From Magnetococcales bacterium DCbin4 (GTDB lineage: Bacteria; Pseudomonadota; Magnetococcia; Magnetococcales; UBA8363): a stretch of DNA of 36,648 nucleotides. The stretch is taken from NCBI GenBank assembly GCA_002753735.1, contig PEAN01000037.1, positions 1-36,648 on the forward strand. The letters run 5' to 3'. This document shows, piece after piece, positions 18,065 to 36,340 of the stretch. Positions within the stretch are counted from its first letter, which is position 1. Every line of letters begins with the position of its first letter. The position numbers and the translations under genes were made by a program. A model generated the notes under the pieces. The model was not told the origin of the DNA, did no database searches, and worked only from the letters and a program-made list of their open reading frames with translations.

Positions 18065-18088
18065 GCCAACACCCCGAAATGAATCCAT

Positions 18089-19717: not shown

Positions 19718-19821
19718 CGGACGGTCCTTCTCCGAATGAGGACGATGGATCATGGATTCACTTTCCGCCGTTTACAGTGAACGGCATTGTCGATGAATCA
19801 TTCCTGTTTTGCAAGTGGATC

Positions 19822-20571
19822 TCAAGGCGACGCATACCGACTGATGACCCCCATGATTTCGCTACAGCGAATTCCCAGAAGACGATCATTGAACAAAGGA
19901 CTGATCGCAATCCTGGAGGGATCCTCCTGAATGGTTTTGATCACAAAGTTCGTGGTTGCCGTGACATTTTCCTCCTCGAAAAAATGATCCCGAAGGTTTG
20001 TCGGCGTCTGGGTCGGGTCACGCACCTGACGCGTGGGGGAAAACGTCAGCGGGTCGCCCGGTGCAATCAGAATCGCCGCATAATCGCCACTGCCGTTGAG
20101 GGTCAGGTTGTTGCCGTCGCATGCATAGCCATTGGCCGTGGCCGAACCCGATTTGAAGATTCCGGAAACCACATACCAGATGGGGGCGTTGGAGCCGTCG
20201 GTGAATGGCGGCAGGCCCAGGTCGAACCATGGGAGAAAACCAATCGCCATTTGACCATCTGCACCGCCACACGGCCCCGACGCCGCAGCATTGGTTCGAT
20301 AACCGCCCAGGGTCACATTGGCGGGACAGGGAAGCCGTCCAAACTGGCCCGCCGCCCCCGCATTGACCACGGCAGAACCGATCAACGCCTTTTTCGCCCG
20401 GGCCAACAACGCCGCTGAGGAGGTATCGTTACGCATCCGTTTGCTTTTGATCTTCAATCCTTCCAGGGCCATGGAGATCCCACCGATCAGCACCACCGAC
20501 AACAGCAGCAAAAGTGCCGCCCCCTGTTGCCGGGTTCCCGGACCCCCTTTCCGCTCGGATCCTTGGCTCAT
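19822..20571 (-). CDS. GspK/PilX-like minor pilin with the GRLPCP/LPW domain
   Basis: The 249-residue product begins with a charged leader ending RQQG and a hydrophobic helix AALLLLLSVVLIGG that lacks the Glu5 of ordinary prepilins, as GspK-type tip subunits do. The periplasmic part repeats the motif series of the two other pilins: FGRLPCPA, GFLPWFDLGLPPF, an aromatic IWYVVSG and DYAAILIAPGDPL. The ATG overlaps the upstream accessory-protein stop by 4 nt. A role as pilus tip or initiation subunit is inferred from the GspK-like N-terminus. It is one of three apparent paralogues in a row. Confidence 0.8.
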   Translation of the reverse strand: MSQGSERKGGPGTRQQGAALLLLLSVVLIGGISMALEGLKIKSKRMRNDTSSAALLARAKKALIGSAVVNAGAAGQFGRLPCPANVTLGGYRTNAAASGPCGGADGQMAIGFLPWFDLGLPPFTDGSNAPIWYVVSGIFKSGSATANGYACDGNNLTLNGSGDYAAILIAPGDPLTFSPTRQVRDPTQTPTNLRDHFFEEENVTATTNFVIKTIQEDPSRIAISPLFNDRLLGIRCSEIMGVISRYASP

Positions 20572-21446
20572 GGCTCTGGCTCCACAGGTGTCGGAATCGC
20601 GGCACCCATACCCGAATACAACGATTGCAGGGAACCCAGAAATTTCATGACATCGGCGGGATTGACCGTCCCCGGGGGCAGCGATGGAACCTGAAACAGG
20701 GCCTCCGGGTTGGATGCAACCTGGTCGGACTTCTTGCCCGCTGTGGATCCCGCCGCCACGGGCAACACTTCTTTCGCGGCCGTTTTTGCGGATTGCCCCT
20801 CCGGTTGATCTTCAGTTGCCCCCTCCCCCTCCGGTGGCGGTTCCCGCCGGGCCGATGCCCGTTGTCCGGCAGGAACATCCCAGATCCTGACCACCCGTTT
20901 ATCCACGAAATCGAGCGTTTGACCTGGTTTGACCATGAACACCTCCGGTGAATCCACCGAGGAGACCGGCAATCCCGCAGGGGTTGCCGATGTCAGAAAG
21001 GCGGTAAACCCCTCCCCTTGATAATCCTTGCCCCGAGGCAGGGATTTGCCATCCAGCCAGATCTCCCAGGTGCCATTTTCCTTGAAGACCATACCGGTTA
21101 CTGAGACATACCTTGGTCCTTTGACCACCGGGGCTTGTTGTTTGCCCTCTTCCTGCCCGACGACCTTTTCAAGCCCGGCAACCGTCCCACCCTCCCGGCG
21201 CAACCGGTCCAATAGAATCCGCTGCTCAGGGGCATTGAACAACCGCCCCAACATCGACTTTCCCGCCGAATCGCCAACGGACAACGGCACCTCCGCCCCC
21301 ACCGGAACCGGACCCATCCACACCATCCCTCCGGCCAGAAGGAAAAGACACACCGCACCACCGGTCACAACCGGATCTCCTTTCTCCACTTCGGGAACCT
21401 CCATGCCTTCGATGATACCTTGCGCCCCATGGGGATGACAATCCAT
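20568..21446 (-). CDS. Membrane-anchored pilus accessory protein (MshK/PilP-like position)
   Basis: The product is about 292 residues. A short cytoplasmic N-terminus is followed by one membrane segment (about 25-50) and a periplasmic part with LFNAPEQRILLDRLRR and then VSVTGMVFKENGTWEIWLDGK. These two motifs recall MshK, GspB and similar secretin-side proteins, which have LD..R and a small beta domain. A Pro/Glu-rich tail follows. Its place after the assembly ATPase and before the pilins fits an alignment or secretin-coupling role. The start is uncertain: ATG 21446 without a clear ribosome site, or ATG 21404. The stop overlaps the next gene's ATG. Confidence 0.6.
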   Translation of the reverse strand: MDCHPHGAQGIIEGMEVPEVEKGDPVVTGGAVCLFLLAGGMVWMGPVPVGAEVPLSVGDSAGKSMLGRLFNAPEQRILLDRLRREGGTVAGLEKVVGQEEGKQQAPVVKGPRYVSVTGMVFKENGTWEIWLDGKSLPRGKDYQGEGFTAFLTSATPAGLPVSSVDSPEVFMVKPGQTLDFVDKRVVRIWDVPAGQRASARREPPPEGEGATEDQPEGQSAKTAAKEVLPVAAGSTAGKKSDQVASNPEALFQVPSLPPGTVNPADVMKFLGSLQSLYSGMGAAIPTPVEPEP

Positions 21447-21493
21447 CAATCATCAAGATCGCCCGGATGGCATCACCACCCCGGGGATCCAGT

Positions 21494-23263
21494 TCATGGA
21501 TGGGTCTGCAGACGCGAAGAGAGGTCCAATACCCGGCTGATTTCATCCAGGCTGACGATCCCTTTCAATACCAATCGCACCCCATTATCCGCCATGGTCT
21601 GCAATCCTTTTTCATGGGCCAGGCGGGAAAACTCCGTCTTCGTCGCCCGATGCGAAATCAGATTGTCAAAGGCATCATCAATCGGAACGGCCTCCATGAC
21701 CGTAATCCGTCCCTTGTAACCGATGTCATAACAGGCACTGCAACCCGACGCATGATAGATGACGACCGGTTCATCCGCATCGACACCCAGGATCGACCGT
21801 TCCAATGCGTTCGGCGCACTCGGCAATTTGCAATGTGGGCATAATTTTCGCACCAACCTTTGCGCCAGGATACCGACAACATTCCCCGAAAGGGTATCGG
21901 GGGTGATTCCCAGATCGAACAACCTGGGAAAGGCACCCAGGGCGGAATTGGTATGCAACGTGGAGAACACCTTGTGACCGGTCATCGCCGCCCGCAACGC
22001 CATGGTCGCCGTATCCAGATCCCGGATTTCACCCACCAGGATCACATCCGGATCCTGCCGCAACATTGAACGGATCCCCTCCGAGAATCCCAGGTTGGCC
22101 GCGGTATTCACCGAAGTCTGCCGGATCATCTGAATGGGATATTCGACCGGATCCTCCAGGGTCATGATATTGATTTCCGGGGTATTCAAAAAATTCAACA
22201 TCGAATACAACGTCGTCGTCTTGCCACTGCCCGTGGGACCCGTCACCAGGATGATCCCCACCGGGTGTGCCATCATCATCTTCAACGTGAACATGGTCTC
22301 GGAATCCAGCCCCAGATATTCCAGACGCAAAATCCCTTTGTTGCGATCCAGAATGCGCAGGACGATGTTTTCGCCATGCGTCGTGGGTTGCGAGGCCACC
22401 CTGAAATCGATCTCGCGTTTTGATACTTTCAAGGTGAACCGTCCATCCTGGGGGGATCGGGTTTCGGCAATGTTCATCTTGCTCAACACCTTGATCCGGA
22501 CCACCAATCCCGACAGATAATCCCGATGCAGGCTGCGCGTTTCCATCATCACGCCATCGATCCGATAACGGATCCGCACAAAACCCGCCTCCGGCTCGAT
22601 GTGAATGTCGGAGGCATCACGGCGCACGGCATCGGCCAAAAGCGAATCAACCAACCGTACCATGGGATGGCTGAACTCCCCCGCCTCCGCCGAGGCCAGG
22701 CTGTCCAAATCCACGACCCCGGTTTCGATTTCCCGCATGATCCCTTCGAGCGATAGTTCGAAGCCATAATATTTGTCAATCGCCTGGCCAATTTCCGACT
22801 CCCCGGCCAAGACCGATTTGATGGTTGTTCCCGGTTTCAATCGCGCCTGAATCTTGTCCAGGATCCCCACATCCAGGGTATTGGGCATTGCCACCGTCAG
22901 CAATAATTTTTGCTCATCCCAGTCCACCGGCATGATCCGAAAACGTTCCACCAACTTTTTCGGAATCATTTTCACCGCTTCGGGATTGATGTTGGACTGG
23001 CTCAGGTCGATACTCCCCTCCCCCAGTGCAGCCCCCAACAGATCACGCATCACCGCTTCCGGTACCAGATCAAGTTTGACCAGAATGCGCCCCAATTGCT
23101 CCTTTGTTTTTTTCTGTTCGTGCAGGGCGATGCGCAATTGATCCTGCGTAATGATCATCCCCGCCAGCAGCAACTCACCCAGACGGCGGGGTTTGCGTTC
23201 GGGCGCCGGGGGGGACTCAGGTTTGACCGGGGGCGTTCCGGGTGGAGCGGAAGGGGGAATCAT
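21494..23263 (-). CDS. mshE: Type IV pilus assembly ATPase, MshE/PilB/GspE family
   Basis: The 589-residue product is a cytoplasmic motor for pilus extension. The N-terminal MshEN-like part has a well kept first motif (Arg27-Leu28-Gly29, Gly35, Leu43, Leu47, Gln50) and a degenerate second one from Leu57. Known MshEN domains bind c-di-GMP by this double motif. The ATPase core has Walker A GPTGSGKTT (342-350), an Asp box, a Walker B-type motif (QDPDVILVGEIRD) and a His box. A zinc tetracysteine (CPHC at 475-478 and the Cys pair of GCSAC) sits near the C-terminus. The ATG overlaps the MshN-like stop by 4 nt. A second, fused assembly ATPase lies in the plus-strand unit. Confidence 0.93.
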   Translation of the reverse strand: MIPPSAPPGTPPVKPESPPAPERKPRRLGELLLAGMIITQDQLRIALHEQKKTKEQLGRILVKLDLVPEAVMRDLLGAALGEGSIDLSQSNINPEAVKMIPKKLVERFRIMPVDWDEQKLLLTVAMPNTLDVGILDKIQARLKPGTTIKSVLAGESEIGQAIDKYYGFELSLEGIMREIETGVVDLDSLASAEAGEFSHPMVRLVDSLLADAVRRDASDIHIEPEAGFVRIRYRIDGVMMETRSLHRDYLSGLVVRIKVLSKMNIAETRSPQDGRFTLKVSKREIDFRVASQPTTHGENIVLRILDRNKGILRLEYLGLDSETMFTLKMMMAHPVGIILVTGPTGSGKTTTLYSMLNFLNTPEINIMTLEDPVEYPIQMIRQTSVNTAANLGFSEGIRSMLRQDPDVILVGEIRDLDTATMALRAAMTGHKVFSTLHTNSALGAFPRLFDLGITPDTLSGNVVGILAQRLVRKLCPHCKLPSAPNALERSILGVDADEPVVIYHASGCSACYDIGYKGRITVMEAVPIDDAFDNLISHRATKTEFSRLAHEKGLQTMADNGVRLVLKGIVSLDEISRVLDLSSRLQTHP

Positions 23264-25875
23264 GGCACCGACCGGTCAACGGATTCCATGTGCAACACCG
23301 CAATGCGATGACGTACCGCATCGATGTCGAAGTTGACCTTCCTGAACCGTGTGGCCACCTCCAGTGCCTGTTGATAATGATCGATCGCCTCGGGCACACG
23401 CCGAAGGTGATCCAATGCGACCCCCAGGTTGAACATGATTTCCGGATTGTCCCGTTCCAGACGATTGGCATTTCTGAACGCGATCAATGCCTCCGGCCAA
23501 CGTTTTTGCGCAGCCAACAGGTTGCCCAGGAAAAAATGGAGATGCGCCGCCTCCGGGGTATCCCGCAATTGCTGGCGCAAACGACTCTCTTCACCCTCCA
23601 CCACCGCATTGCCCTGAATGCCTGCCAAACCCGCCAGGGCGACGGAATGCCTGGGATCGACACTCAAAATTTTCCGATAATAGAATTCGGCATTACGGAC
23701 ATCTCCCCGCCGCGACGCCACCGACGCCAATCCGAGCATGGCCCCGGGGTCACGCTTGTCTGCGTTGTAGACCCGCTGGAACAACCGCTCCGCCGCCTCC
23801 AAATCCCCCCTTCTGAATGCCTCCGACGCCCGGGCGATTTCTCCGTCACGATGCTCCCGGTTCACCCGCTTCGTTTGCACCGAACCCTCATCCGACACGA
23901 CAGGTTTTCCCTTGTCCGTTGCCGTTCCATGACTTGCACGCAGCGCCGGAGCGACACGGTTGGGATCCGGCAGCGGTTCGAAAACTTCCCGGGCGTTCAA
24001 TGAACTGCCATGGACCGATGAAACCCCCATGGAATCGCTCTTTCCCGGCAAAGAAAATCCACGGCCCTCAACCGGAGGAATTCCCACGGGGTCCTGCTTT
24101 CCCGTGGTGGGAACTCCACGGTCCTGAACTGGAGAAACGTCAGAAATATCACTCTTTACCGGGAAAGGATCATTTTTTGGCACAGACACCACAACGGGTG
24201 GTTTTTCATCAGGAGGGCTTGCCGGCTGTGGTGACTTCACCTCAGGTCGCCCTTTCCCTTCCGCAGTCTGCTGATTTTTTTCCGCATCAGGTTTCCCGGT
24301 CTTTTCCGGAACCGGAGTCGAGCCACCCCCGGATCCAGCCTGGTTCATGGGACCCTGATCACTGCGATGGGCCGGACGCCCCCCCCTGGCAGGTGAAATT
24401 TCATCATCAAAGGGGGCCAAGGCTTCATTGATGAAATAACCTGCAATCCCCACGATACACGTCAACCCTGTCGCACCGATGGCATGAATCCATCGGCGGC
24501 GTTTGACATGCGCTTCGTACTTTTTGCGGGAGGTCATCATCCGCGAGGCTTTCGCCCAGACATCTCCTGTCGCCTTTGGTCCTTCCGACGACCGACCCGC
24601 CGCACTCGCCGTTGCCGGACTGGAGACCTCACCGGCCCCCTCATCCGACCTGATCGGGGAGCGTTGATCGCTGCGTTGCGTCTTTTTCAGGGGCAACCCC
24701 TTGACCACTGAAAGGAAACGATCCGACAAACCGGCCTTCTTTCCTTTGATGGCAGACACTTCACCAGGAGATCCTTGCGCAGCGGACGATCCCTTGGAAT
24801 CTCCAGACAACTCGAATACGGGTTCCAAGGGCGGCGCCACCAACGGCTTCGCAACCGGCGCTACCGTCAGCTCTGGAATCGGCTCTGGGACCGGCGCCAC
24901 CGTCAGCTCTGAAATCGGCTCTGGGACCGGCGCTGCAACCGGAGCCACAACCGAGAGCGTCTCAGGTTCCGGAGCGGAAATCGCACCGTTTTCCGAACCA
25001 CCGGCGACAGTGGGATCCTCTTCAATGGCGACGAATCCCTTCCATTCTTTCTTCGGGGGTTCATCGTCCAACAATTGCAACCCTTCCTCGCGTTCACGCC
25101 CGGAAACGGAAGGCGCGTCCACCACCATCACCGAAAGGTCTTCCTCCTGACCCAAACCGATCTCCATATCAGGCTTGCGGGCCTTGAAGGAAACCTCCTC
25201 ATCCGGAATGACTTCCACGGGGATTTCAGGATTGGAACCGTGGTTGGCACCCGAAGATTCCTCGAAAAAGACCAGCATCTCCAAATCATCCGGAGACGAA
25301 TCCACATTTTCCTTGGGAGTCGCCTTGGGGCCCCCAAGATTTTCGGGCAACGTTTCTTCAATCAGATCATCGACATCCCAGGAGGAAGGGAAATCCCATG
25401 CTTCGGACCACGACTGATCCTGCTTTTGCGCAACGGTTCCGCCTTGGTTCACTGATGATGACGAGGAAGGGGTTACCGGAGCATGGGATGCTTTGTCGAC
25501 CGGTTCCGGTTCAAACGCGATTTCCAAAACCGCTTGATCATGCGACGATTCAGGGACAGGTTCGGCTGCGGGTTTCAAAACCGCTTGACCATGGGACGAT
25601 CCCGGGACCGGTTCCGGTTCGAGCGTGAGTTCCAGAACCGCCTGCCCACGTGACGATTCAGGGACCGATTCCGGTTCAAGCGTGAGATCCAGAACCGCCT
25701 GCCCACGTGACGATTCAGGAACCGGTTCCGGTTTGAGGGCTGTTTTCTGACCGACGGGTACCCCTGTCCCACCGCCCGGGCCACCTGTCACCGGGGCTGC
25801 GTTGGACGGGGAAGGGGAACGTTTTGCGCGCCGAGCATTTTCGGCATTCTTCAGGGTTTCAAGCAACAGACTCAT
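23260..25875 (-). CDS. MshN-like TPR protein, very long
   Basis: The 871-residue product starts MSLLLETLKNAENARRAK, like the cytoplasmic N-termini of MshN/GspB-type proteins. A long disordered acidic and Pro-rich part follows, then one membrane segment (about 462-485), a Pro/Lys/Ser-rich periplasmic linker, and at least four TPR-like repeats (about 690-850). MSHA MshN proteins are usually around half this length; the excess comes from repeats at residues about 50-127 and elsewhere. It overlaps mshL upstream and mshE downstream by 4 nt each. It probably links the inner-membrane machinery to the secretin; the symbol is withheld because similarity is mainly architectural. Confidence 0.72.
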   Translation of the reverse strand: MSLLLETLKNAENARRAKRSPSPSNAAPVTGGPGGGTGVPVGQKTALKPEPVPESSRGQAVLDLTLEPESVPESSRGQAVLELTLEPEPVPGSSHGQAVLKPAAEPVPESSHDQAVLEIAFEPEPVDKASHAPVTPSSSSSVNQGGTVAQKQDQSWSEAWDFPSSWDVDDLIEETLPENLGGPKATPKENVDSSPDDLEMLVFFEESSGANHGSNPEIPVEVIPDEEVSFKARKPDMEIGLGQEEDLSVMVVDAPSVSGREREEGLQLLDDEPPKKEWKGFVAIEEDPTVAGGSENGAISAPEPETLSVVAPVAAPVPEPISELTVAPVPEPIPELTVAPVAKPLVAPPLEPVFELSGDSKGSSAAQGSPGEVSAIKGKKAGLSDRFLSVVKGLPLKKTQRSDQRSPIRSDEGAGEVSSPATASAAGRSSEGPKATGDVWAKASRMMTSRKKYEAHVKRRRWIHAIGATGLTCIVGIAGYFINEALAPFDDEISPARGGRPAHRSDQGPMNQAGSGGGSTPVPEKTGKPDAEKNQQTAEGKGRPEVKSPQPASPPDEKPPVVVSVPKNDPFPVKSDISDVSPVQDRGVPTTGKQDPVGIPPVEGRGFSLPGKSDSMGVSSVHGSSLNAREVFEPLPDPNRVAPALRASHGTATDKGKPVVSDEGSVQTKRVNREHRDGEIARASEAFRRGDLEAAERLFQRVYNADKRDPGAMLGLASVASRRGDVRNAEFYYRKILSVDPRHSVALAGLAGIQGNAVVEGEESRLRQQLRDTPEAAHLHFFLGNLLAAQKRWPEALIAFRNANRLERDNPEIMFNLGVALDHLRRVPEAIDHYQQALEVATRFRKVNFDIDAVRHRIAVLHMESVDRSVP
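25495..25728. repeat. 57-bp-period repeats in the MshN-like gene
   Basis: Four imperfect units of about 19 residues contain PVPESSRGQAVL or SSHGQAVL followed by acidic Pro-rich residues. Nearby, about 24850-24950, a shorter repeat encodes VAPVPEPISEL-type units. Both lie in the predicted disordered cytoplasmic part. Confidence 0.8.
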
Positions 25876-27578
25876 GGACGACCAACACCGAGTTCACCCC
25901 AATCCTTGTCGATCCCTTTCTCCCGGGACAGGTACAGATTCTTGCTCGCCGCCCGGTCCATATCGTTGGCATCATGAAGGGTCACGGGTCTGAGAAAAAT
26001 GACCAGCTCTTTTTTCTCCTGTTTGTTATCCCGGTAACTGAACAACGGCCCGATCAGCGGAAGTTGACCCAGGAGGGGTACGGAATCCATTTTTTTGGCA
26101 AAATTGTTTTCCATCAACCCGCCCATCACCGCCAGCTGGCCACTGACCACCCGCAACGTCGAATCCATCTCCTGCACCTTGACCACCGGTACCTTGGGGG
26201 GGGTGAAGGAGCCGGTGGTAAGATTATCAGGACGCATGTTCGGATCGGGATTGTCAACCCATTCGGAGATCCGTTGGATGGTGGGATGGACATTGAGCGA
26301 GATGACATCCCCTTCGCTGATCTGCGGCGTCACCTGCATGATGATCCCGATGGGGGCGATCCGCATTTTTGTTTCTTTTCTTGACAAGATGGACATGAGC
26401 TCCGTCGCCATGGAAGTGATGTTCGTCCCCTCAAGTTTGGTAATGGCGGGAGGAGATACTTCCACTTCGAAATAGACCACGTTTTCGGTCACTCTCAGGA
26501 CGGCGGTCTGGTTGTTCATGACGGTGAGCCGTGGATTGGACAACACCTTGGAGTCACCGAACCGTGACAACATGCGGACGGTCGAAGTGATATCGGCATT
26601 TTTCATCACTCCGGTCAGGAACGGAACCTCCCCCTGATGCATGGTCAGCGAGAGGGCGGGACCACCTGCGAGTTCCTGATTGAGCATGTTCTGCCGGTTG
26701 CCATGATCGGCTTGGTTATTACTCATCAACAGATTCCAGTCAACACCGGCCTGGAATCGGTCGGAAAGATTGACCTCGACGATGGCGGCCTCGATGAAGA
26801 CCTGGCGTTGCGTATCACGCATGATCTGATCCAGGAACTCTTGAATTTCCTTGTGCTGCCGCTGGGTCGCCAGGATGCTGAAATTGCCGGTCGTGGTATT
26901 CAGGACGACCCGTTTGCCCTCTCCCGTTGCCGGCGGACCCACGATGGCCTCGATATTTTCAAGCATGTTGGCCCAAAAATCGACATCACTCTTCGTCGTC
27001 AGGTTGAGGGTTGAATTGTTGCCCTTCACCTTGTCTTTTGAAGAGGCCATATTGGTCGTGACCTCCATAATGGATTCAAACTTCCGGTTGTTCAGGAGGT
27101 AGTCCACCTTGTAATGACGCCGAAAAGGGGTATCGGGGGCAATGGTGATGAATTCACGGGTGATCTGATATTTCAAGCCGGCATACTCGGCAATGCGGTC
27201 GAGGATGACTGGAAGGGTTTGATTGACGGCGTTGATGGTAATCTTTCCTTCGATCCCGGGATAGATATCGATATCAAGATCGGCGTCACGCGCCAGGGAA
27301 AAAAGGACCTCGCGCAGAGGGGCATCGGTCACGGCGACCGAATATAAGGCAAGCGGAACGGAATGGGTGTTCGACATGAGGAAGGTCGTCGAAGGAGCAA
27401 ACTCGGGGATACGTTCCTCCGCCCCTGGCGTCAACAGGGCGACCCGGGGATCGGAAGATTCATGGCCTGGATCCGCAAAACCATGGGCGGGAACCGACGC
27501 AACCATCCATGCCACCAGACCGAGAAGCAGAAGAGGCTTTCGCGGCACATGAGCCAAAGTGATGCAATCCGCGCGCAT
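25872..27578 (-). CDS. mshL: MSHA-type pilus secretin, MshL/PilQ/GspD family
   Basis: The 568-residue product forms the outer-membrane pore for the pilus. A hydrophobic signal sequence (about 14-35) precedes an STN-like segment (PLREVLFSLARDADLDIDIYPGIEGKI), then N-domains and the secretin core with IEAAIVEVNLSDRFQAGVDW, DSKVLSNPRLTVMNNQ and the C-terminal LGQLPLIGPLFSYRD signature ending in ELVIFLRP. No lipobox is obvious, so piloting may need another protein. The ATG at 27578 overlaps the mshM stop by 1 nt (TGATG), which decides it over the preceding TTG. The stop overlaps the MshN-like start by 4 nt. Confidence 0.92.
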   Translation of the reverse strand: MRADCITLAHVPRKPLLLLGLVAWMVASVPAHGFADPGHESSDPRVALLTPGAEERIPEFAPSTTFLMSNTHSVPLALYSVAVTDAPLREVLFSLARDADLDIDIYPGIEGKITINAVNQTLPVILDRIAEYAGLKYQITREFITIAPDTPFRRHYKVDYLLNNRKFESIMEVTTNMASSKDKVKGNNSTLNLTTKSDVDFWANMLENIEAIVGPPATGEGKRVVLNTTTGNFSILATQRQHKEIQEFLDQIMRDTQRQVFIEAAIVEVNLSDRFQAGVDWNLLMSNNQADHGNRQNMLNQELAGGPALSLTMHQGEVPFLTGVMKNADITSTVRMLSRFGDSKVLSNPRLTVMNNQTAVLRVTENVVYFEVEVSPPAITKLEGTNITSMATELMSILSRKETKMRIAPIGIIMQVTPQISEGDVISLNVHPTIQRISEWVDNPDPNMRPDNLTTGSFTPPKVPVVKVQEMDSTLRVVSGQLAVMGGLMENNFAKKMDSVPLLGQLPLIGPLFSYRDNKQEKKELVIFLRPVTLHDANDMDRAASKNLYLSREKGIDKDWGELGVGRP

Positions 27579-28903
27579 CAACAGGAAACCCCGGCTGTGG
27601 ACGAAGCGCTGCCTTGACAGGCTTTCGGAACCTCTGAAGAGGCCGGGTGCAACGCCGTTCGCGACGTCAACTTCAAAACAGGGATGATGAGGCTTCCATG
27701 TTCATACTGCAACGTGCCCCCCCTTTTCTCCAGGACGGGGTTCACCCTGGTGGGGTGTGGCATCGAAGAGGGCGGGATCGTCGCGGTCGTCTGGCCACCG
27801 GCGGCTGTGGTCTGGCCGGCGATCATCAGACCATCGGCACTGGCGGTCTGGCCTCTGGCGCCGATGGCCTGACCTCCGGCATTTGATGGGACATCCGCCA
27901 TCAATAAGGGAAGCATCCCCGACAGCAGCGTCATCCCAACGCCACCAAACACCATGGTGGACGGTTTGGGACAATGAACGCGGACGATACCGGATCCAAG
28001 ATTGGAGAAACGACGGGTCAGGTTGTCAATCCATCGTCCGGGCCATCTTCCGGGCCATCTTCCGGGCCATCTTCCGGGCCATCGTCCGAGCCGGGGCACC
28101 CAACGTTGATTCCGCGACGGGGGTAGATGTCTTTTTTCCACCACCCGCACCCCTTCCTGAAAGGCTTGGATCAGGCCATGGTGGGCCAACACGTTGAGCT
28201 GCCGCAGACTCCCATGGGCCGCACCATGGAGTTCCGCCACCGCTGCGGAAGAAAATTCAACCGAGGCCGTCCCTTGGCTGGCCCGATCAATACGGACCTG
28301 AAGGTAGTGCGCAGTATCCCCCGGGGAGAACTCGGGCAGGATCAGATGCCGCGTCACACGGTCACCGATGGGATGGAGGTTTGGGTGCCGCAACACCTGG
28401 TCCAATTCCGGTCGGCCAAAAAGAACGATTTGCAGCAATTTATGACGACCGGTTTCAATATTGCTGAAAAACAGCAATTCCTCATAAAGTTCCGGCAGGA
28501 CCGATTGCGCCTCGTCCAGCAGCAACAATGCCTGGTGCCCCTCCCTGAACAGATCGATCAAATAATCCTGTAACCGTTGACGACTGCCATGCATCCCCTG
28601 TCCCGCATCTGTAGACTGCCCGAACTCCCGCAACAGCACGTCACACAGGGTTCCCGGGGCGATTCTGGGATCGATGATCAGGGCGGTATGAACCCGAGAT
28701 GACAACTGTTGCCCCAGAATGCGGCACAGCGTGGTCTTGCCCGTCCCAACCGCGCCCACCACCTTGATGATCCCCTCCCCGTTCAAAACCGCCAGTTCCA
28801 TGGCATCGAGGAGCCATTGCCGTTGACAACCAGAATAGAAAAAATCCTCATCGGGGGTGATGGCAAACGGCAGCAAGTCGAATCCGAAAAATGCTTTGTA
28901 CAT
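27578..28903 (-). CDS. mshM: MshM/ExeA-like AAA ATPase with membrane and low-complexity C-terminal extension
   Basis: The 441-residue product begins MYKAFFGFDLLPFAITPD, the usual ExeA/MshM start. An AAA domain follows with Walker A GAVGTGKTT and Walker B LLLLDEAQ. Family members use ATP in cell-wall passage or assembly of the secretin. Plain MshM proteins end near residue 280. Here the ATPase is followed by a tandem GRWP repeat, a predicted membrane segment (about 305-328) and a Gly/Ala/Thr/Pro-rich periplasmic tail, making it closer in layout to ExeA. I chose ATG 28903 because AGGT lies 6 nt upstream; ATG 28909 and TTG 28921 are alternatives. It opens the minus-strand pilus unit. Confidence 0.88.
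   Translation of the reverse strand: MYKAFFGFDLLPFAITPDEDFFYSGCQRQWLLDAMELAVLNGEGIIKVVGAVGTGKTTLCRILGQQLSSRVHTALIIDPRIAPGTLCDVLLREFGQSTDAGQGMHGSRQRLQDYLIDLFREGHQALLLLDEAQSVLPELYEELLFFSNIETGRHKLLQIVLFGRPELDQVLRHPNLHPIGDRVTRHLILPEFSPGDTAHYLQVRIDRASQGTASVEFSSAAVAELHGAAHGSLRQLNVLAHHGLIQAFQEGVRVVEKRHLPPSRNQRWVPRLGRWPGRWPGRWPGRWPGRWIDNLTRRFSNLGSGIVRVHCPKPSTMVFGGVGMTLLSGMLPLLMADVPSNAGGQAIGARGQTASADGLMIAGQTTAAGGQTTATIPPSSMPHPTRVNPVLEKRGGTLQYEHGSLIIPVLKLTSRTALHPASSEVPKACQGSASSTAGVSC
28031..28092. repeat. 12-bp tandem repeats within mshM
   Basis: About five copies of CCATCTTCCGGG and variants encode four to five GRWP tetrapeptides between the ATPase domain and the membrane segment. The inner three copies are identical, pointing to recent slippage. 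Confidence 0.9.
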
Positions 28904-29179
28904 GTCCATACCTGTGAACAATGGGGATCCGGTGGTATCAACTCATCGAAAAGACTTGAAAATCTCTTGATTTGTTCCGCCTGGACAGGACGTTCCCGCC
29001 TGCACGCATTGCGGATTGCCCAAGACAGACAAGCAAATTCAACGCCAGGATCAACGGTCGGATCCCGTATCGACGATGAAACATCCTCAATCAGACACTT
29101 GTGAACGGATGACCCCTCTGCAACACCATGGTATGGTGACGATTGCAGCGAACGCTTGCTTTTCACCAATCATCCGTTG
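28904..29179. other. Divergent promoter region of the two pilus units
   Basis: These 276 bp separate the minus-strand mshM unit from the plus-strand fused ATPase unit and should carry promoters for both. I see no clear sigma-54 motif and no strong inverted repeat. Confidence 0.4.
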
Positions 29180-31888
29180 ATGGAACCGGCTGGCATGAAC
29201 ACCCGTTTTTTAGAATCGTTGATCCGCTCCCGGGTCATGTACCCCACCCGGCTGGCGGGACCGTTATGGCTCCTTCTGCTTCAGGATCGTGAAGTGCGCC
29301 TGCTCCGTGGCCGCCCCTACCACCAGGAGACCGAGGAAGTATTCAACCAATCGGTCGAAGGTCAACAAAAACTGCGCGCACGTCTCCAACAGGGAGACAT
29401 GATCGAAGGCCGTTTCCTGCTCGTGGCCGATCTGATCGACGACGCCCTGCACCATCAGATCATTCCCGGCCTGCACTTCCACAATCGACGCGGGGCCATG
29501 GAAAAACGTCTTGACCGGCTGTTCCGTCAGACCCCCTATCGCCGCGCCTCCCCCCAGGGACGCCGCTCTTCGGGGAAGGAACAGGTCCTCTTTTCCGGTC
29601 TCACCGAACCCCGGATGGTCCAACCCTGGATCACCCTTTTGAAAGAAGAAGGCAGGAAGATCGCCGGTCTGTGGTCGATTCCACTTCTGAGTGAGGATGC
29701 CTTTCCCGAACTGATGCAGGGACATGCGCAAAACACGCTCCTCATCAGTTTCGGGGCTGCGGGGCAACGGCACAGCCTGTTTCTGGATGGTCGCCTGATC
29801 ATCAGCCGTCTGGCCCCCCGCCAGCCGACCCGGGATCAGGAACTCGCCCGTACCGTCATGGCGGAAATCGAACGGACCCGGCGCTATCTCATCGGTTTAC
29901 GCCTCATCCCCGGCCAGGACGCCCCCCTGGATGTGTGTGTTCCCCTGCGGCAGGAGATGTTCCAACCCTCCTCCGTGCAACAATGGTCGGAGCACAAAAA
30001 CATCCGGATTCTTTTCCATCCCGTGGAGACCTGGGCACGGAATCTCGGATTGTCGGGATCCTTCTCCCCCCAGCGGATGGATCTGCTGTTCGCCCAATTC
30101 CTTCTGCGCACCCTTCCCGCCAGCCACTACCCGCCCATCCCCTCGGCGACAGGGGTCAGAAGTGCCCCGGAAGTCGCCACCGCACCCGAGGGGAAACCGG
30201 CTGCCCCGCCGCGAATGCACCGGGTGGGCGACGCCCTGGTGGAAATGAAGGTGATCTCCGAACAACAACTCGATATCGCACTCGCAGAACAAAAGCGTTT
30301 GGGCTACCCCATCGGCAAGGTTCTGGTGACGCTGGGATTCATTTCCGAAGAACGGATGCGTGATCTCCTCGGCGCGACCCTGGAACAGGAAATCGTCAAC
30401 CTGAACATGGGTGCCTTCGACACCCGGGCATTGAATTACCTGCCCAAACAGTTTGCCAAACGGCATCACATCCTTCCCCTGGACTTCGATCCCGCCACCC
30501 AGACCCTGACCGTTGCCACCGCCAATACCTTCAACATGGCAGCGCTCGACAAACTGCAATCGCTCCTCCCCGAAGGGGTCCATGTCCGACCCAAACTCGC
30601 CGGTGAAAGCGAGCTGACCGCCGCCATCGACAGTGCCTATGGCATTGAACTGTCGTTGGATGGCATCCTCAACGAGTTGGAAACCGGTGAGGTTGACAGC
30701 GAAAGTCTCCTGGAGGATGAAGGCAATTTCAGCAATCCCGTATTGCGTCTGGTCAACGCCCTGCTGACGGATGCCGTCAAACGGTCCGCATCCGACCTGC
30801 ACATCAATCCCATGGCCAGCCTCATCCGGATTCGTTATCGCATCGATGGCGTCTTGCGCGAGGCCCGGCTGCTCAACCGCAAATATCTTCCCGCGTTGGT
30901 GGTACGGATCAAGGTGATGGCGGGGATCGACATTTCCGAAACCCGTGCCCCGCAGGATGGTCATTTCAGCCTGGAAATCGCCAATTCCCACATCGACTTC
31001 AGGGTTTCGGTCCAACCCACGAACTACGGTGAAAACATCGTATTGCGAATCCTGGATCGCAACCGCAGGCTCGTCGGTCTGGAGCAGCTCGGTTTGGCTG
31101 ACCACGATGTCGGGGTCATCAAAACCCTCATGCATCGCCCTGAGGGGATCATCCTGGTCACAGGTCCCACGGGTTGCGGCAAGACGACCACCCTGTATGC
31201 CATGTTGTCCACCCTCAACACCCTGGAAAAAAATGTGATGACCCTGGAAGATCCTTTGGAAATCCCATTGGACGCCATCCTCCAGACCTCGGTCAACAAG
31301 GCGGTGGATCTGGATTTCGCCTCCGGGGTCCGTTCCATGTTGCGCCAGGACCCCGACATCATCATGGTGGGTGAAATTCGCGATCTGGAAACGGCGGAAA
31401 TGGCCTTGCGTGCCGCCATGACGGGCCATCAGGTCTATTCCACCCTCCATGCCAATTCGGCCATGGCGGCCATTTTCCGCCTGCTCAACATTGGTTTGCG
31501 CTCCGACATGCTGGCGGGTAACATCATTGGCATCATGGCGCAACGCCTGGTCCGCAAACTGTGTACCCAGTGCCGCATCCCGATGGCTCCGGATCCCTTT
31601 GTCGGATCCTTTTTCCAGCACCCTCCCGGTGTGTCCACGATCTACCATGCGGGTGGATGCCGGGTATGTGACGATACGGGGTACAGTGGCCGGACGTGCA
31701 TCATGGAACAATTGGTGATTGATGATGAATTCAACGACCTGATTTCCCTCAACGCCCCCCAGGCGGAATTCCGCAGGCTCGCCCGGGAAAAAAACGTGCG
31801 GATCATGGCCGATTCGGGGAAAAAATTGGTTCTGGATGGGGTGACCAGTGTCGATGAGGTTGCCCGGGTACTGGGATTGAGGTTTTAA
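29180..31888 (+). CDS. PilB/MshE-type assembly ATPase fused to an N-terminal PilM/MshI-like domain
   Basis: The product is about 902 residues. Residues about 26-315 match the N-terminal domain of the MshI-like protein encoded at 33317: compare RLFRQTPYRRA, LFSGLTEP and IAGLWSIPLL here with RIFRNTPFVHA, LFVGLTDP and IAGIWSLPLL there. Residues about 348-400 form an MshEN-like segment (RVGDALVEMKVI then a second unit). The motor core has Walker A GPTGCGKTT (about 662-670), QDPDIIMVGEIRD and Cys pairs CTQC and CRVC. It is an intact ATPase by motif and a paralogue of the 589-residue one. The start is uncertain: ATG 29180, ATG 29195 or TTG 29156. It leads the plus-strand unit. Confidence 0.88.
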   Translation: MEPAGMNTRFLESLIRSRVMYPTRLAGPLWLLLLQDREVRLLRGRPYHQETEEVFNQSVEGQQKLRARLQQGDMIEGRFLLVADLIDDALHHQIIPGLHFHNRRGAMEKRLDRLFRQTPYRRASPQGRRSSGKEQVLFSGLTEPRMVQPWITLLKEEGRKIAGLWSIPLLSEDAFPELMQGHAQNTLLISFGAAGQRHSLFLDGRLIISRLAPRQPTRDQELARTVMAEIERTRRYLIGLRLIPGQDAPLDVCVPLRQEMFQPSSVQQWSEHKNIRILFHPVETWARNLGLSGSFSPQRMDLLFAQFLLRTLPASHYPPIPSATGVRSAPEVATAPEGKPAAPPRMHRVGDALVEMKVISEQQLDIALAEQKRLGYPIGKVLVTLGFISEERMRDLLGATLEQEIVNLNMGAFDTRALNYLPKQFAKRHHILPLDFDPATQTLTVATANTFNMAALDKLQSLLPEGVHVRPKLAGESELTAAIDSAYGIELSLDGILNELETGEVDSESLLEDEGNFSNPVLRLVNALLTDAVKRSASDLHINPMASLIRIRYRIDGVLREARLLNRKYLPALVVRIKVMAGIDISETRAPQDGHFSLEIANSHIDFRVSVQPTNYGENIVLRILDRNRRLVGLEQLGLADHDVGVIKTLMHRPEGIILVTGPTGCGKTTTLYAMLSTLNTLEKNVMTLEDPLEIPLDAILQTSVNKAVDLDFASGVRSMLRQDPDIIMVGEIRDLETAEMALRAAMTGHQVYSTLHANSAMAAIFRLLNIGLRSDMLAGNIIGIMAQRLVRKLCTQCRIPMAPDPFVGSFFQHPPGVSTIYHAGGCRVCDDTGYSGRTCIMEQLVIDDEFNDLISLNAPQAEFRRLAREKNVRIMADSGKKLVLDGVTSVDEVARVLGLRF

Positions 31889-31898
31889 TCATTAATAG

Positions 31899-32095
31899 AA
31901 AAAAGGGGTCTGGGGGACTGCCCCCAGGGTGTTGGTTTTGATTTGGACTTTGACTTTGTTTTTACATCCCCCACAGGGGGTTTGGGGGACGAAGTCCCCC
32001 AAGGTTCTTCTTTATGATTTTAACCGCACACCAGAATCAAAACCCTGGGAGCAATCCCTTAAGCCCCCTTTTTTCTTTTAATCATTTTTTCATGG
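31899..32095. repeat. Dispersed modular repeat, copy D (inverted plus direct unit)
   Basis: A nearly whole unit reads minus (about 31899-32012), containing hairpins CTGGGGG/CCCCCAG and TTGGGGGAC/GTCCCCCAA (31982-32002) and the hexamer tract. A shortened unit then reads plus (about 32032-32082) with arms GGGAGC (32047-32052) and GCCCCC (32063-32068) and T6 (32069-32074). The gap 31889-32109 between the fused ATPase and pilC genes holds no gene. Confidence 0.8.
32047..32074 (+). terminator. Terminator-like hairpin inside the pilus unit
   Basis: A GC stem (32047-32052 with 32063-32068, one mismatch), a 10-nt loop and T6 lie 36 bp before the pilC start, reading in the same direction. It could uncouple pilC and later genes from the fused ATPase gene. 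Confidence 0.55.
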
Positions 32096-32109: not shown

Positions 32110-33306
32110 GTGCCCAAATATCTTTACAAGGCGACCGACGACGATGGCAATCTCCGTGAAGGATCGATGGATGCCGCCAACGTCGATGAGTTGGAGATGC
32201 GTCTTGACCAGATGGGACTCATGCTCATCAGCCTCAAGGGCAACCGTCACAAGCTGTTTTCCCGCCGCCGCGGCATCGGACGCCGCAACCTGATCCTGTT
32301 CTGCTTCAACATGGAACAAATGGCCATCTCCGGCGTCCCCCTGCTCGAAGGGATGTCCGACCTGCGCTCCGGGGTCGAGGATGCCACATTCAGGGAATTG
32401 CTGACCTCACTGGTCGAAGATGTCAGCGCCGGACGGTTTCTGTCCCAGGCCATGGAATCCCACCCGGAAACCTTCAACCCGGTTTTCATCCGGCTGATTC
32501 ACGTCGGGGAACAGACCGGCAGCCTGGGTGAAATATTTCACAACCTCACCGAAAACCTCAAATGGGAAGACGAACTCGTAAGCCAAGCCAAAAAGGTCGT
32601 CACCTATCCCGCCATCGTGGGCAGCACCGTCGTCCTCCTGGTCTTTTTCCTGATGATCTATCTGGTCCCCCAACTCATGCAGTTCATTTTGGAGATGGGT
32701 GGCGAAATTCCCCTGCATACCCGCGCCTTGATCGCCTCCTCCGACTTCATCTCCAACTGGTGGCACCTGCTGCTCCCGTTCCCGTTCGTCATCTTTGCCG
32801 CCATCCGAGTGACCACCCGGATCAGTATCGATGCCCGCCGCAGGTTCGACCGGCTCAAGCTCAAGTTGTGGCTGTTCGGACCCTTGATCCACAAAATCAT
32901 CCTGGTCCGTTTCGCCCGTACCTTCGCACTGATGTACAAAGCCGGGATCCCCATCCTGGAAAGCCTGGGGATCAGTGAAGGGTTGAGTGACAACCTGGTC
33001 ATCCGTGAAGCCCTGGAAAAGGCACGCAGAATGGTGTCGGAAGGCAAGGGGATCACCGAAAGCTTCCGAACCGTGGGTTTTTTCCCCCCCCTCGTGCTCA
33101 ACATGCTCCAGGTCGGGGAATCCCTGGGCAAACTGGACCACTCCCTGCTCAATGTGAGTTATTTCTATGATCGGGATGTCAAGGAAAACATCGCCAAACT
33201 GGAAACCGCCATCGAACCCATCCTGACCGTCATTCTCGGTGGCATCATCGGTTGGGTGATCCTGTCGGTTTTGGGACCGATCTATCAACTCATCGAAAAA
33301 CTTTGA
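32110..33306 (+). CDS. mshG: Pilus inner-membrane platform protein, PilC/MshG/GspF family
   Basis: The 398-residue product has two GspF domains: cytoplasmic helices at about 65-165 and 270-375. Membrane segments lie at about 172-195, 220-240 and 375-395. It starts with KYLYKATDDDGNLREG and has the family motifs RLIHVGEQTGSLGEIF and MLQVGESLGKLDHSL. It is the inner-membrane rotor that couples assembly ATPases to pilin polymerisation. The start is a GTG at 32110 with GGGAG about 14 nt upstream, so initiation may be weak. It is the only platform gene here and must serve one or both ATPases. Confidence 0.93.
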   Translation: MPKYLYKATDDDGNLREGSMDAANVDELEMRLDQMGLMLISLKGNRHKLFSRRRGIGRRNLILFCFNMEQMAISGVPLLEGMSDLRSGVEDATFRELLTSLVEDVSAGRFLSQAMESHPETFNPVFIRLIHVGEQTGSLGEIFHNLTENLKWEDELVSQAKKVVTYPAIVGSTVVLLVFFLMIYLVPQLMQFILEMGGEIPLHTRALIASSDFISNWWHLLLPFPFVIFAAIRVTTRISIDARRRFDRLKLKLWLFGPLIHKIILVRFARTFALMYKAGIPILESLGISEGLSDNLVIREALEKARRMVSEGKGITESFRTVGFFPPLVLNMLQVGESLGKLDHSLLNVSYFYDRDVKENIAKLETAIEPILTVILGGIIGWVILSVLGPIYQLIEKL

Positions 33307-33316
33307 TCCGCCGATC

Positions 33317-34966
33317 ATGGTTCGCAAATTTTTTCTCTTCCTTTCGGACCATGTCATCACCGTCCATGAATGGCGCGGAGGTCATTTCTTCGAAGGGATC
33401 CGGCTGGAACTCAACGAGGAGGGTCTGAAAAAATTTGAAGAATACCTCGACTCGATTCAGTTGGATGGACCCGTCTACCTGCTCATCGATGTCACCGAAG
33501 AAGAAATGCATGAAGAACTTGTTCCCAAACTCATGGGCAACAACCGAAAGAAGGTCCTCCGCCAACGTGCCAACCGAATTTTTCGCAATACCCCATTTGT
33601 TCATGCCCGTTTTCAGGGACCCGTCAAGGAGGACCGTAAAAAGGAACATGCCCTGTTCGTAGGATTGACCGACCCGGAAAACGCAGCCCCCTGGATCGAT
33701 ATTCTGACCAAACGCCAGGCGGAAATCGCCGGCATCTGGTCCCTGCCGTTGTTGGCGCTCCAGGTGTTCAACCGTTACATCCCCAAAGAGGCGTCGGTCC
33801 TGTTGATCAGTCCCAATTCTGGAGGACTGCGACAGATATTCGTCAAGAATGGCAAAATCAAGGTCAGCCGCCTCTCCCATCTCCCCTCCCGGGATCCTGA
33901 AACCGTCATGCTGTTCATCCATGGGGAAATTGCGCGCCTCCTGGGATATCTGAATACCCTGCGGCTGGTCAATAATGATGATAAACTTGACATTTTCGTC
34001 CTGTGCCCAAAAAAATTGCTGCGATATCTGACCGAACACAACAAACCGATCAAATCGCATGAAATTCATCCGGTCGATGCCGAAGCATTGGCCCGCAACT
34101 ACCACATCAAGGGCGGTTTGGAGGAAGAACATGTCGATGTCCTGTTCGGTCAATGTCTCCTCAAACGCCGTGAACCGAACCATTACGCCCAACCGGAGGT
34201 CATCCATCGCCACCGTGTCACCGTCATGTGCCATTGGCTCAAGATGCTGGCGATTTTATTGTTGATCTGCGGCGTGGGCACGGGATTGACAACCGCAATC
34301 GAAGGTTATCTGGCGTTGACCGAACTGCCTCAACTGGCACAACAGGTCGATGAAGCCCAATTGACCGTGCGTAAACTCACCCGGGATGAGTCCATCAAGG
34401 ATGGCGCAGGCATGGATTGGGTCACGCCCGCCAAAATCCTTGATAAAGTCGACGCCATCAAAACCACGCCCCGGGATGCCCTGGTGTTCGTCAGTCAGGC
34501 GCTGGTCAACTTCGACGACCTTTGGATCGACCGCATCGATTGGGAATCTCCCAGCAAAGATGCGCCTCCGCCAACGCAGGCCCCGGGTCAGAAGAATAAC
34601 ATCCCCACCAAACCCCAGCGCAATGCGGCACCCAACAAACCCGCCATGGCTGGTAAACAGGCGGCATCCATCAAACCGGCCATGGATGGTTATAAGCTCA
34701 CGCATCAATCGATCCGCATTTCAGGGCTACTCCAGCCCTTCCAAGGATCCCCCAGTGATGCCCAACGCCGGATCGAACAATGGATCAGCACCCTGAGATC
34801 GATGCCGGAGGTGTTGGCCGTGGAGACTCAATCCATGCCCATGGACAGCCATCAAAACACCATCCTGGACAATACCCGTCAGGCACAGACTTCCAAGCAA
34901 TCGTCATTCAAAATTTCCGTAACCCTGTCCCATCACAGTCATGACGCTCATCAAGAACGCCCCTGA
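33317..34966 (+). CDS. MshI-like pilus alignment protein (PilM-like plus PilN-like)
   Basis: The product has 549 residues. Residues 1-300 are a cytoplasmic domain of PilM/MshI type (for example VLLISPNSGGLRQIFVKNG near 161-179). One membrane segment lies at about 308-328, a coiled coil at about 335-360, and a PilN-like periplasmic domain follows with a Pro/Ala/Lys-rich linker near 420-450. It joins the cytoplasmic motor to the periplasmic alignment complex. Its N-terminal domain is clearly paralogous to the front of the fused ATPase. It begins 10 bp after pilC and overlaps the PilO-like gene by 26 bp. Confidence 0.8.
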   Translation: MVRKFFLFLSDHVITVHEWRGGHFFEGIRLELNEEGLKKFEEYLDSIQLDGPVYLLIDVTEEEMHEELVPKLMGNNRKKVLRQRANRIFRNTPFVHARFQGPVKEDRKKEHALFVGLTDPENAAPWIDILTKRQAEIAGIWSLPLLALQVFNRYIPKEASVLLISPNSGGLRQIFVKNGKIKVSRLSHLPSRDPETVMLFIHGEIARLLGYLNTLRLVNNDDKLDIFVLCPKKLLRYLTEHNKPIKSHEIHPVDAEALARNYHIKGGLEEEHVDVLFGQCLLKRREPNHYAQPEVIHRHRVTVMCHWLKMLAILLLICGVGTGLTTAIEGYLALTELPQLAQQVDEAQLTVRKLTRDESIKDGAGMDWVTPAKILDKVDAIKTTPRDALVFVSQALVNFDDLWIDRIDWESPSKDAPPPTQAPGQKNNIPTKPQRNAAPNKPAMAGKQAASIKPAMDGYKLTHQSIRISGLLQPFQGSPSDAQRRIEQWISTLRSMPEVLAVETQSMPMDSHQNTILDNTRQAQTSKQSSFKISVTLSHHSHDAHQERP

Positions 34967-35570
34967 GACCCGTTTGTTATGGAAGGCATCGGCCCTGCTG
35001 GCACTCTCCATTCCGCTGGGCATTGCCGCGGCATGGGGCGGCATTCATTACCGCGATTCGGTCCAACAACAAATACGGCAGATACAAAACCAATTGGTTT
35101 CCATCCGCAACAAGAAGGCGACGTATGCCCAGGACCTGGATCTGATCAAAACCTTCAAACCCAGGTATGAAACCTTTGAAGCCAAGGGGGTGATCAACCA
35201 GGAACCACGGCTCACCTGGTTGGACACCATCGACCGGATTGGCAAGGAGTTGAACCTGCCCCAGCCCGTCCGTTACAAGCTGGATGTTCGCAAACCGTTC
35301 GATGCCCCCTTTACGCCGCCCCGCAGCAACTTCATCCTTCATGCCAGCACCATGACGTTGAACATCAGTCTCCTGCATGAAGGCGATCTGTTCGATTTTT
35401 TCACCGCTCTGGAGCAACGCGCTCAAGGAATGTTCAGCATCCCCTCCTGTGCCATCCGACGGACGGAAACACGCTACGATTTGAAAGGAAAAGACGAGTG
35501 GACCACCGCCCTGGAGGCGGACTGCGTGCTGAACTGGTTCACCCTCTGGAACAAGGAGGTCAAACCTTGA
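34941..35570 (+). CDS. PilO/MshJ-like pilus alignment protein
   Basis: The 209-residue product has a short cytoplasmic N-terminus, one membrane segment (about 15-36), a coiled coil with QIRQIQNQLVSIRNKKATY and a small periplasmic ferredoxin-like domain, the layout of PilO, GspM and MshJ proteins. Sequence similarity is weak, so the call rests on architecture and on its place after the PilN-containing protein. It overlaps that gene by 26 bp. Its last codons include the strong ribosome site of the next gene. Confidence 0.72.
   Translation: MTLIKNAPETRLLWKASALLALSIPLGIAAAWGGIHYRDSVQQQIRQIQNQLVSIRNKKATYAQDLDLIKTFKPRYETFEAKGVINQEPRLTWLDTIDRIGKELNLPQPVRYKLDVRKPFDAPFTPPRSNFILHASTMTLNISLLHEGDLFDFFTALEQRAQGMFSIPSCAIRRTETRYDLKGKDEWTTALEADCVLNWFTLWNKEVKP
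35552..35560 (+). promoter_or_regulatory. Strong ribosome-binding site that sets the permease start
   Basis: AAGGAGGT ends about 7 nt before TTG 35567, which overlaps the PilO-like stop (TTGA). The first ATG, 35576, is about 16 nt away, too far, so the TTG is preferred. Confidence 0.75.
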
Positions 35571-36340
35571 AGTGGATGCATCATGGCCAGGTCATGGGGA
35601 TCATCGCCCGCATGACGTTTCTGGAACAGGTGTCCAACCGCCTGCCGTGGGCGGTGGTGCTGGTCTGGGGAATCGGAACAGGGTTGGCCATCCTGGCCAC
35701 CACCGGAGCGGAGATGACGCAAGGGGCCATGATGGGTGCCCTCTTCCGGATCGGGGCGGTTTTTTCGTTGACGGCAGCGGTCATCACCAGCATGGCCAGG
35801 GAATTCAACGACCGCCGGGTGGAGGCCACCCTGGCGCTGGCGATCCCCCGCGCCGTCTATCTTGGCGGCAAACTGACCGGGTTCATCCTGACGGCGCTCC
35901 CCATGGCGCTCCTGTTCGGCCTCGGCCTGCTCCCCTTCGCCCCGTGGGAACAGACACTCCTGTGGGGAATCTCCCTGGGATACGAACTCATCCTGATGGC
36001 AGCGTTCAGCCTGCTCCTGGTGTTGACCCTGACCCACGTCACCCGCGCCCTGTTGATCGCCATGGCCCTCTGGATGCTGGCACGTTCGATCCATGCGATG
36101 ATCCTGATGGCCAGCACCCCACTCGCAGAACTCAATCCCCTGTCGGGAACATGGGTCACCCCCATCCTCAAGTTCATCTCCTGGCTGCTGCCCGATCTGG
36201 GTCGGTTCACCTCCGGGGAATGGTTGCTCCATCACACCGGTCGCTGGCAAGATTTGGGAACCCTCACCCTGGAAACCCTCTTCACCCTTTTCCTTCTTTG
36301 TGGAGCGGGACTCTATGATTTTTATAAAAAAGACCTGTAG
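35567..36340 (+). CDS. ABC-2-type permease-like membrane protein
   Basis: The 257-residue product has about six membrane helices. The segment MAREFNDRRVEATLALAIPRAVYLGGKLTGF matches the amphipathic stretch after helix 2 of ABC-2 export permeases (GldF/NosY style). No ATP-binding subunit gene is in the window. The start is a TTG at 35567, set by the strong upstream ribosome site. It is cotranscribed with the pilus genes. In Myxococcus an ABC transporter (PilGHI) is needed for pilus assembly, so a pilus-related role is plausible but inferred; it could also move a glycan or lipid. Confidence 0.75.
   Translation: MKWMHHGQVMGIIARMTFLEQVSNRLPWAVVLVWGIGTGLAILATTGAEMTQGAMMGALFRIGAVFSLTAAVITSMAREFNDRRVEATLALAIPRAVYLGGKLTGFILTALPMALLFGLGLLPFAPWEQTLLWGISLGYELILMAAFSLLLVLTLTHVTRALLIAMALWMLARSIHAMILMASTPLAELNPLSGTWVTPILKFISWLLPDLGRFTSGEWLLHHTGRWQDLGTLTLETLFTLFLLCGAGLYDFYKKDL

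Follow-up and report, generated by a model that had tools for sequence, protein, structure and literature searches.

A PilM/MshI-type domain fused to an MshE-type pilus motor in Magnetococcales

The MSHA-type gene cluster and its fused motor gene

We analysed a stretch of 36,648 nucleotides (referred to here as the window) from Magnetococcales bacterium DCbin4 (assembly GCA_002753735.1, contig PEAN01000037.1), which contains an MSHA-type pilus gene cluster. Positions 29180 to 31888 of the forward strand encode a fused motor, in which an MshI/PilM-like domain is joined through a linker to an MshE-type extension ATPase. There are three candidate starts, i.e., TTG at 29156 (910 aa), ATG at 29180 (902 aa), and ATG at 29195 (897 aa), and we favour the last because its MNTRF start is conserved in a relative (L031). 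The PilM/GspL-type actin-like domain, delimited by BLASTP, AlphaFold2, and fold matches, covers positions 29225 to 30136 (about residues 24 to 327 of the protein starting at 29156). It is followed by a Pro/Ala-rich linker of about 28 residues (30137 to 30220), which varies from about 20 to 54 residues in relatives. The MshE-type half (residues ~355 to 908) comprises MshEN-type N-terminal motor domains with a c-di-GMP-binding motif (30221 to 30655; NF053729 and PF05157) and a T2SSE ATPase core (30656 to 31885; PF00437) with intact Walker A, Asp box, Walker B, His box, and tetracysteine. With its extra N-terminal region of about 330 residues, the protein departs from the layout of MshEN, N2, and ATPase alone (approximately 570 to 590 aa).

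Downstream on the same strand lie genes for an MshG/PilC-type platform protein (32110 to 33306), assigned by PF00482 and GspF-family matches and an MshG tree, for MshI (33317 to 34966), and for an MshJ/PilO-like bitopic protein (34941 to 35570), assigned by gene position and conservation. MshI consists of a PilM-like cytoplasmic domain, a transmembrane helix, and a PilN-like periplasmic part; its model has a PilM/GspL-type domain, a long transmembrane helix from about residue 293, and then strands and helices in a PilN-like pattern, this C-terminal part being of low confidence. As the initial annotation had proposed, a PilM-type domain is encoded in trans as well, within a full MshI of the same cluster.

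The divergent operon on the reverse strand begins with an MshM-like AAA ATPase (27578 to 28921; PF13401 and TIGR03015), followed by the MshL secretin (25872 to 27581; PF00263, with TIGR02519 at 236.6 bits, below the cut-off of 250.2), an MshN-like TPR protein matching TPR families (23260 to 25875), and the cluster's second motor, a plain MshE-type extension ATPase (21494 to 23263). The plain motor that had been placed across the divergent promoter is indeed a member of the cluster, but it is the fourth gene of this MshM-MshL-MshN-MshE operon and not the gene immediately across. Also on the reverse strand are a gene for an MshK-like protein (20568 to 21449), which lies beside MshJ in relatives and is named by position only, with no Pfam match, and three pilin-like genes (17405 to 20571). 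The N_methyl match is above the cut-off for the pilin-like gene at 18089 to 19753 and below it for that at 17405 to 18088, whereas the gene at 19822 to 20571 is called pilin-like by position and homology only.

The fusion and mshG are separated by a gap of 221 bp, in which G-rich palindromes are found (31981 to 32002). With exactly 18 genomic occurrences, in comparison with zero for a reversed-pattern control, TTTGGGGGACGAAGTCCCCCAA in this gap is a REP-like dispersed element; it also looks terminator-like. Besides, tandem repeats lie in the 554-aa pilin-like gene (18624 to 18963; 21-bp unit, 16.5 copies), the MshN-like gene (25498 to 25733; 57-bp unit, 4.2 copies), and mshM (28031 to 28092; 12-bp unit, 5.2 copies), the last encoding a GRWP tract.

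Relationships of the two halves of the fused motor

The N-terminal 300 or so residues were initially said to align with the cytoplasmic domain of MshI, and this was confirmed by BLASTP: residues 68 to 325 of the fused motor match MshI residues 35 to 290 with 34% identity (125 bits, E=3e-34), much better than chance would give, and the motif pairs RLFRQTPY/RIFRNTPF, LFSGLTEP/LFVGLTDP, and IAGLWSIPLL/IAGIWSLPLL are present in the fused domain and MshI, respectively. An AlphaFold2 model of the domain, built from a 34-row alignment of relatives from the window and public contigs, reached a pLDDT of 84.3 and a pTM of 0.84. Foldseek against the PDB returned PilM first (5eoy, E=8e-11), with EpsL, GspL, and FtsA also among the matches. 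VIA-align gave a Z score of 14.5 for both PilM structures 2ych (rmsd 4.8, 275 aligned) and 5eou (rmsd 5.0, 276 aligned) and 13.9 for EpsL 1yf5 (rmsd 4.0, 226 aligned), which was tied with FtsA; generic actin-fold entries scored about 9, well below PilM and EpsL. Structural similarity is thus evident, PilM and EpsL ranking top with both methods, and the early assignment of the domain as PilM/GspL-like is upheld by the predicted structure and the relatedness to MshI. It was fold search alone that gave PDB matches, since a sequence search with the N-domain profile found no credible one. Pfam found nothing consistent in all 24 aligned N-domains, neither these nor the window protein matching PilM_2 (PF11104), and Pfam and NCBIfam found nothing significant in the first ~350 residues of the fused motor or in MshI.

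Residues invariant in MshI are retained in the fused domain (P104, R111, R121, W158, G171, R205, R218, E237, and L245, numbered from the 29156 start). The junction falls shortly after a conserved HY that precedes the membrane helix of MshI, and the linker and motor occupy the place of the transmembrane and PilN parts. The single transmembrane segment and PilN-like periplasmic domain characteristic of MshI and GspL are lacking in the fused motor; its peak 19-residue hydropathy is 1.15 versus 2.18 in MshI, and no membrane-spanning hydrophobic stretch was predicted in any of the 27 fusions. Sequence and model together identify the fused domain as a PilM/GspL-type actin-like domain whose transmembrane and PilN parts have been swapped for a motor. 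Between related pairs, dN/dS of the fused domain is 0.11 to 0.18, and we regard the fused motors as being under purifying selection, with the domain evolving about 2 to 3 times faster than the motor half in most pairs. Identity between the fused domains and the neighbouring MshI has fallen to about 29% (the value for the window, against a background of 26%), so the binding specificity of the fused domains may differ.

In the C-terminal 570 residues (338 to 908), the fused motor is 53% identical to the plain motor at 21494 to 23263. PF00437 (T2SSE) scored 414.5 bits (cut-off, 24.9), PF05157 scored 47.7 bits (cut-off, 23.1), and the c-di-GMP motif NF053729 scored 57.1 bits (cut-off, 38), this motif being intact. 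The scores for the PilB equivalog TIGR02538 (488) and TfpB NF053534 (399.5) were below the cut-offs of 675.65 and 850, respectively. Elsewhere, the genome encodes three PilT-sized T2SSE proteins and a further motor (L007, 412 to 2694, on contig C35) with an N-terminal GAF domain ahead of MshEN and T2SSE, a second way in which a pilus-type ATPase is extended at its N terminus.

Distribution, phylogeny, and types of locus

Fused ORFs, mostly of 900 to 1,000 aa, were found in at least 27 of the 48 Magnetococcales genomes, with at least 31 copies; these 48 represent the order and are also all sampled genomes of the class, and nearly all source genomes are MAGs. No fusion was detected in the about 350 genomes outside Magnetococcales in a phylum sample of 398, eight of which encode stand-alone MshI ORFs of 430 to 610 aa, or in 369 Gammaproteobacteria genomes, 72 of which have stand-alone MshI. 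Thus, the fusion is not a routine architecture among the Pseudomonadota sampled. A profile search of contigs from 84,980 species, which provided the coverage of other phyla and reaches fairly close relatives, yielded 20 fusion loci, all in Magnetococcales, and five stand-alone MshI loci. An apparent 904-aa fusion in Thauera (L093) was rejected as an over-extended ORF overlapping MshL. As far as sampled, the fusion appears to be restricted to Magnetococcales. In openly accessible journal papers, we found no published description of a PilM-PilB or GspL-GspE fusion.

In the motor tree, all 27 fused motors form one clade (99/98) separate from plain MshE, and its sole other member is an "MshE" cut by a contig edge (L102), presumably the motor of a truncated fusion. 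In the N-domain tree, 26 of the 27 fused domains form a moderately supported group (80/85) that excludes the adjacent MshI proteins; the long-branched L044 (genome G013) falls outside with weak support, although the motor tree places it with the other fusions. The trees indicate that the fusion arose once and was kept across Magnetococcales. A recent duplication of the neighbouring mshI was rejected, as the fused domains group together and not with the adjacent MshI, and the 29% identity to the window's cognate MshI is little above background. Joining of two genes by assembly or gene calling is a reading we can practically dismiss; even though nearly all of the sources are MAGs, no fewer than 27 genomes have the same junction, where the frame is unbroken and the linker varies. 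The gene at 29180 to 31888 is a genuine, conserved fusion, neither a one-off nor an assembly error.

Wherever there is enough sequence, the fusion adjoins MshG, and two types of locus were distinguished. In type A, represented by the window, the order is fusion-MshG-MshI-MshJ, and plain MshE follows MshM, MshL, and MshN in the same cluster. In four loci (L039, L106, L108, and L109), the fusion directly follows plain MshE on the same strand, suggesting that a tandem MshE duplicate acquired an MshI domain. MshI is conserved in the A loci, and the fused domain is therefore no simple replacement of it there. In type B, represented by a second locus of the same genome (C133, 2442 to 5204), the fusion has its own second MshG near pilin-like genes, and a normal set of MshE, MshG, MshI, and MshJ lies elsewhere on the contig. 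The MshG proteins of B loci form their own clade in the MshG tree (10 of 11 rows, the exception being L044). Three incomplete MAGs, G013 (93% complete), G015 (99%), and G032 (96%), retain the fusion-MshG pair of type B, and plain MshE and MshI were not detected in them. Judged by size and score, the short MshL typical of other MSHA clusters also seems to be absent from these three genomes, which have other T2SSE motors and PilM_2-family matches. A supposed loss of plain MshE in G022 was rejected, because contig C97 ends just after MshL.

The window protein has an intact Walker A, Asp box, Walker B, and His box and both CxxC pairs, as do the other type A fusions wherever their sequence extends over these motifs, and the motor half is apparently competent on this evidence. 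In all 10 clustered type B fusions (L029 2442 to 5204, L032, L040 to L042, L045, L046, and L086 to L088), GE[IV]HD replaces GEIRD in the Walker B region, the others having GEIRD, and PQT or PQE stands in place of PQD in several of the type B proteins. Two MshE-like proteins beside MshM-like genes (L103, 8346 to 10079; L104, 8321 to 10192) are changed in Walker A, the Asp box, Walker B, and the His box, and are likely dead motors.

A multi-helix membrane protein accompanies both kinds of pilus locus (window, 35498 to 36340; L029, 15990 to 16814; L045, 12805 to 13590). Its sole match is to ABC2_membrane_3, below the threshold, and an ABC-type ATPase gene lies near it in L029 and L045; we take the two to recall the PilGHI transporter of Myxococcus.

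Possible roles of the fused motor

PilB docks in a stator socket formed by PilM (PMC11656802), and PilM and PilB homologues are in contact in several systems, with GspL-GspE and EpsL-EpsE complexes solved (PMC8389850). From these contacts, it follows that a motor with a covalent PilM domain should bring part of its own socket. We consider that the fused gene probably encodes a second MSHA-type extension motor of Magnetococcales with a built-in PilM-type stator or docking domain. Of the two roles put forward in the initial annotation, that of a self-coupled motor fits best. The other, in which one platform would choose between two motors, may apply to the A loci with their one MshG; it is not general, since the B loci have a second MshG and three genomes are without detected plain MshE and MshI.

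A hexamer of the fused motor would carry six PilM-type domains on flexible linkers, which may make the same contacts as the MshI cytoplasmic domain, although docking of MshE by MshI is itself putative in the little-studied MSHA system. The fused domain might bind the motor's own MshEN domain, as GspL binds GspE, or it might join a ring that the cytoplasmic domains of MshI would make beneath MshG; a twelve-fold PilM ring around the PilB hexamer has been discussed for Myxococcus xanthus (PMC8389850), and such a ring would leave room for six fused domains. Under either docking model, the motor would bring part of its own socket and would not need to wait or compete for a free one. In Acinetobacter baylyi, a single machine is served by two extension motors, PilB and TfpB, whose roles are distinct (PMC8213720). 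In much the same way, MshG and MshI of the A loci would be common to the fused motor and plain MshE, whereas in the B loci the fused motor would have its own MshG and could work without MshI. We infer both the docking partners and the division of labour with plain MshE.

The attached domain could instead be a regulatory decoy that competes with MshI for plain MshE or shuts the fused motor's own MshEN, in which case the protein would mainly inhibit or select the ordinary machine under c-di-GMP control and would be no extension motor. The retained MshI-invariant residues, the adjoining plain motor in several loci, and the c-di-GMP motif above the cut-off accord with this, but we find it unlikely, as the motor motifs are intact in the A fusions and nearly so in the B fusions, the fusion is always beside MshG, and B fusions with their own MshG are retained in genomes in which neither MshE nor MshI, the supposed targets of regulation, was detected. 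There is likewise a small chance that the fused ATPase is a specialised motor, driving the same MshG for initiation, priming, or retraction while plain MshE extends. The presence of two motors but a single MshG in A loci, the PilB and TfpB precedent (PMC8213720), and the GE[IV]HD sequence of B fusions would suit this role; nevertheless, with its MshEN domains and tetracysteine, the fused motor belongs to the MshE/extension type and is not PilT-like, and the three PilT-sized proteins are encoded elsewhere in the genome. The faster evolution of the fused domain might also be expected of a roleless leftover from an MshI-MshE gene fusion, a view that we consider very improbable given the low dN/dS, the conserved invariant residues, and the retention of the domain despite deep divergence among the 27 or more genomes that have it.

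The second extension motor that we favour resembles MshE in its MshEN c-di-GMP motif, T2SSE core, full set of catalytic motifs, and position beside MshG in an MSHA cluster, and differs in its added ~300-residue PilM/MshI-type N-terminal domain and its separate clade. It shares a homologous actin-like cytoplasmic domain with MshI and GspL (PulL and EpsL), but has no transmembrane and PilN-like part and has the domain joined to a motor. The fold and the presumed docking role are those of type IVa pilus PilM, which, however, is a separate subunit on the PilN N terminus and is not covalent with the motor. PilB and TfpB are likewise two phylogenetically distinct extension motors in one system, although the NCBIfam model of TfpB, 584 positions long, gives no sign of a PilM-type fusion. 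The GspE-GspL and EpsE-EpsL pairs (4PHT and 2BH1), each of two polypeptides, represent a noncovalent version of the proposed contact.

PilM-type proteins were initially described as separate subunits, which is not the case throughout: the PilM part is already fused to a PilN part in MSHA and type II secretion (MshI and GspL/PulL), PulL being such a fusion (PMC10191384), and hence what is new is the joining of PilM to the motor. The fusion is thus a new arrangement of known parts, a PilM-type stator domain and an MshE-type motor, and a third one for PilM, which is known free in type IVa pili or fused to PilN in GspL and MshI. The stoichiometry is thereby set, with one stator domain for every motor subunit, and structural studies could make use of a motor-stator complex that is covalent by nature. 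A question still to be answered for type IV pili is how extension motors dock on the platform and exchange with retraction motors, and the coexistence of plain and fused motors in one cluster is a natural test of whether pilus dynamics need stator exchange. We suggest, more tentatively, that the PilM-type socket is a covalent part of the hexamer and that the B motor with its own MshG may be a minimal assembly unit without MshI. If this is true, the PilM socket, elsewhere a separate ring contested by extension and retraction motors, becomes part of the motor hexamer itself.
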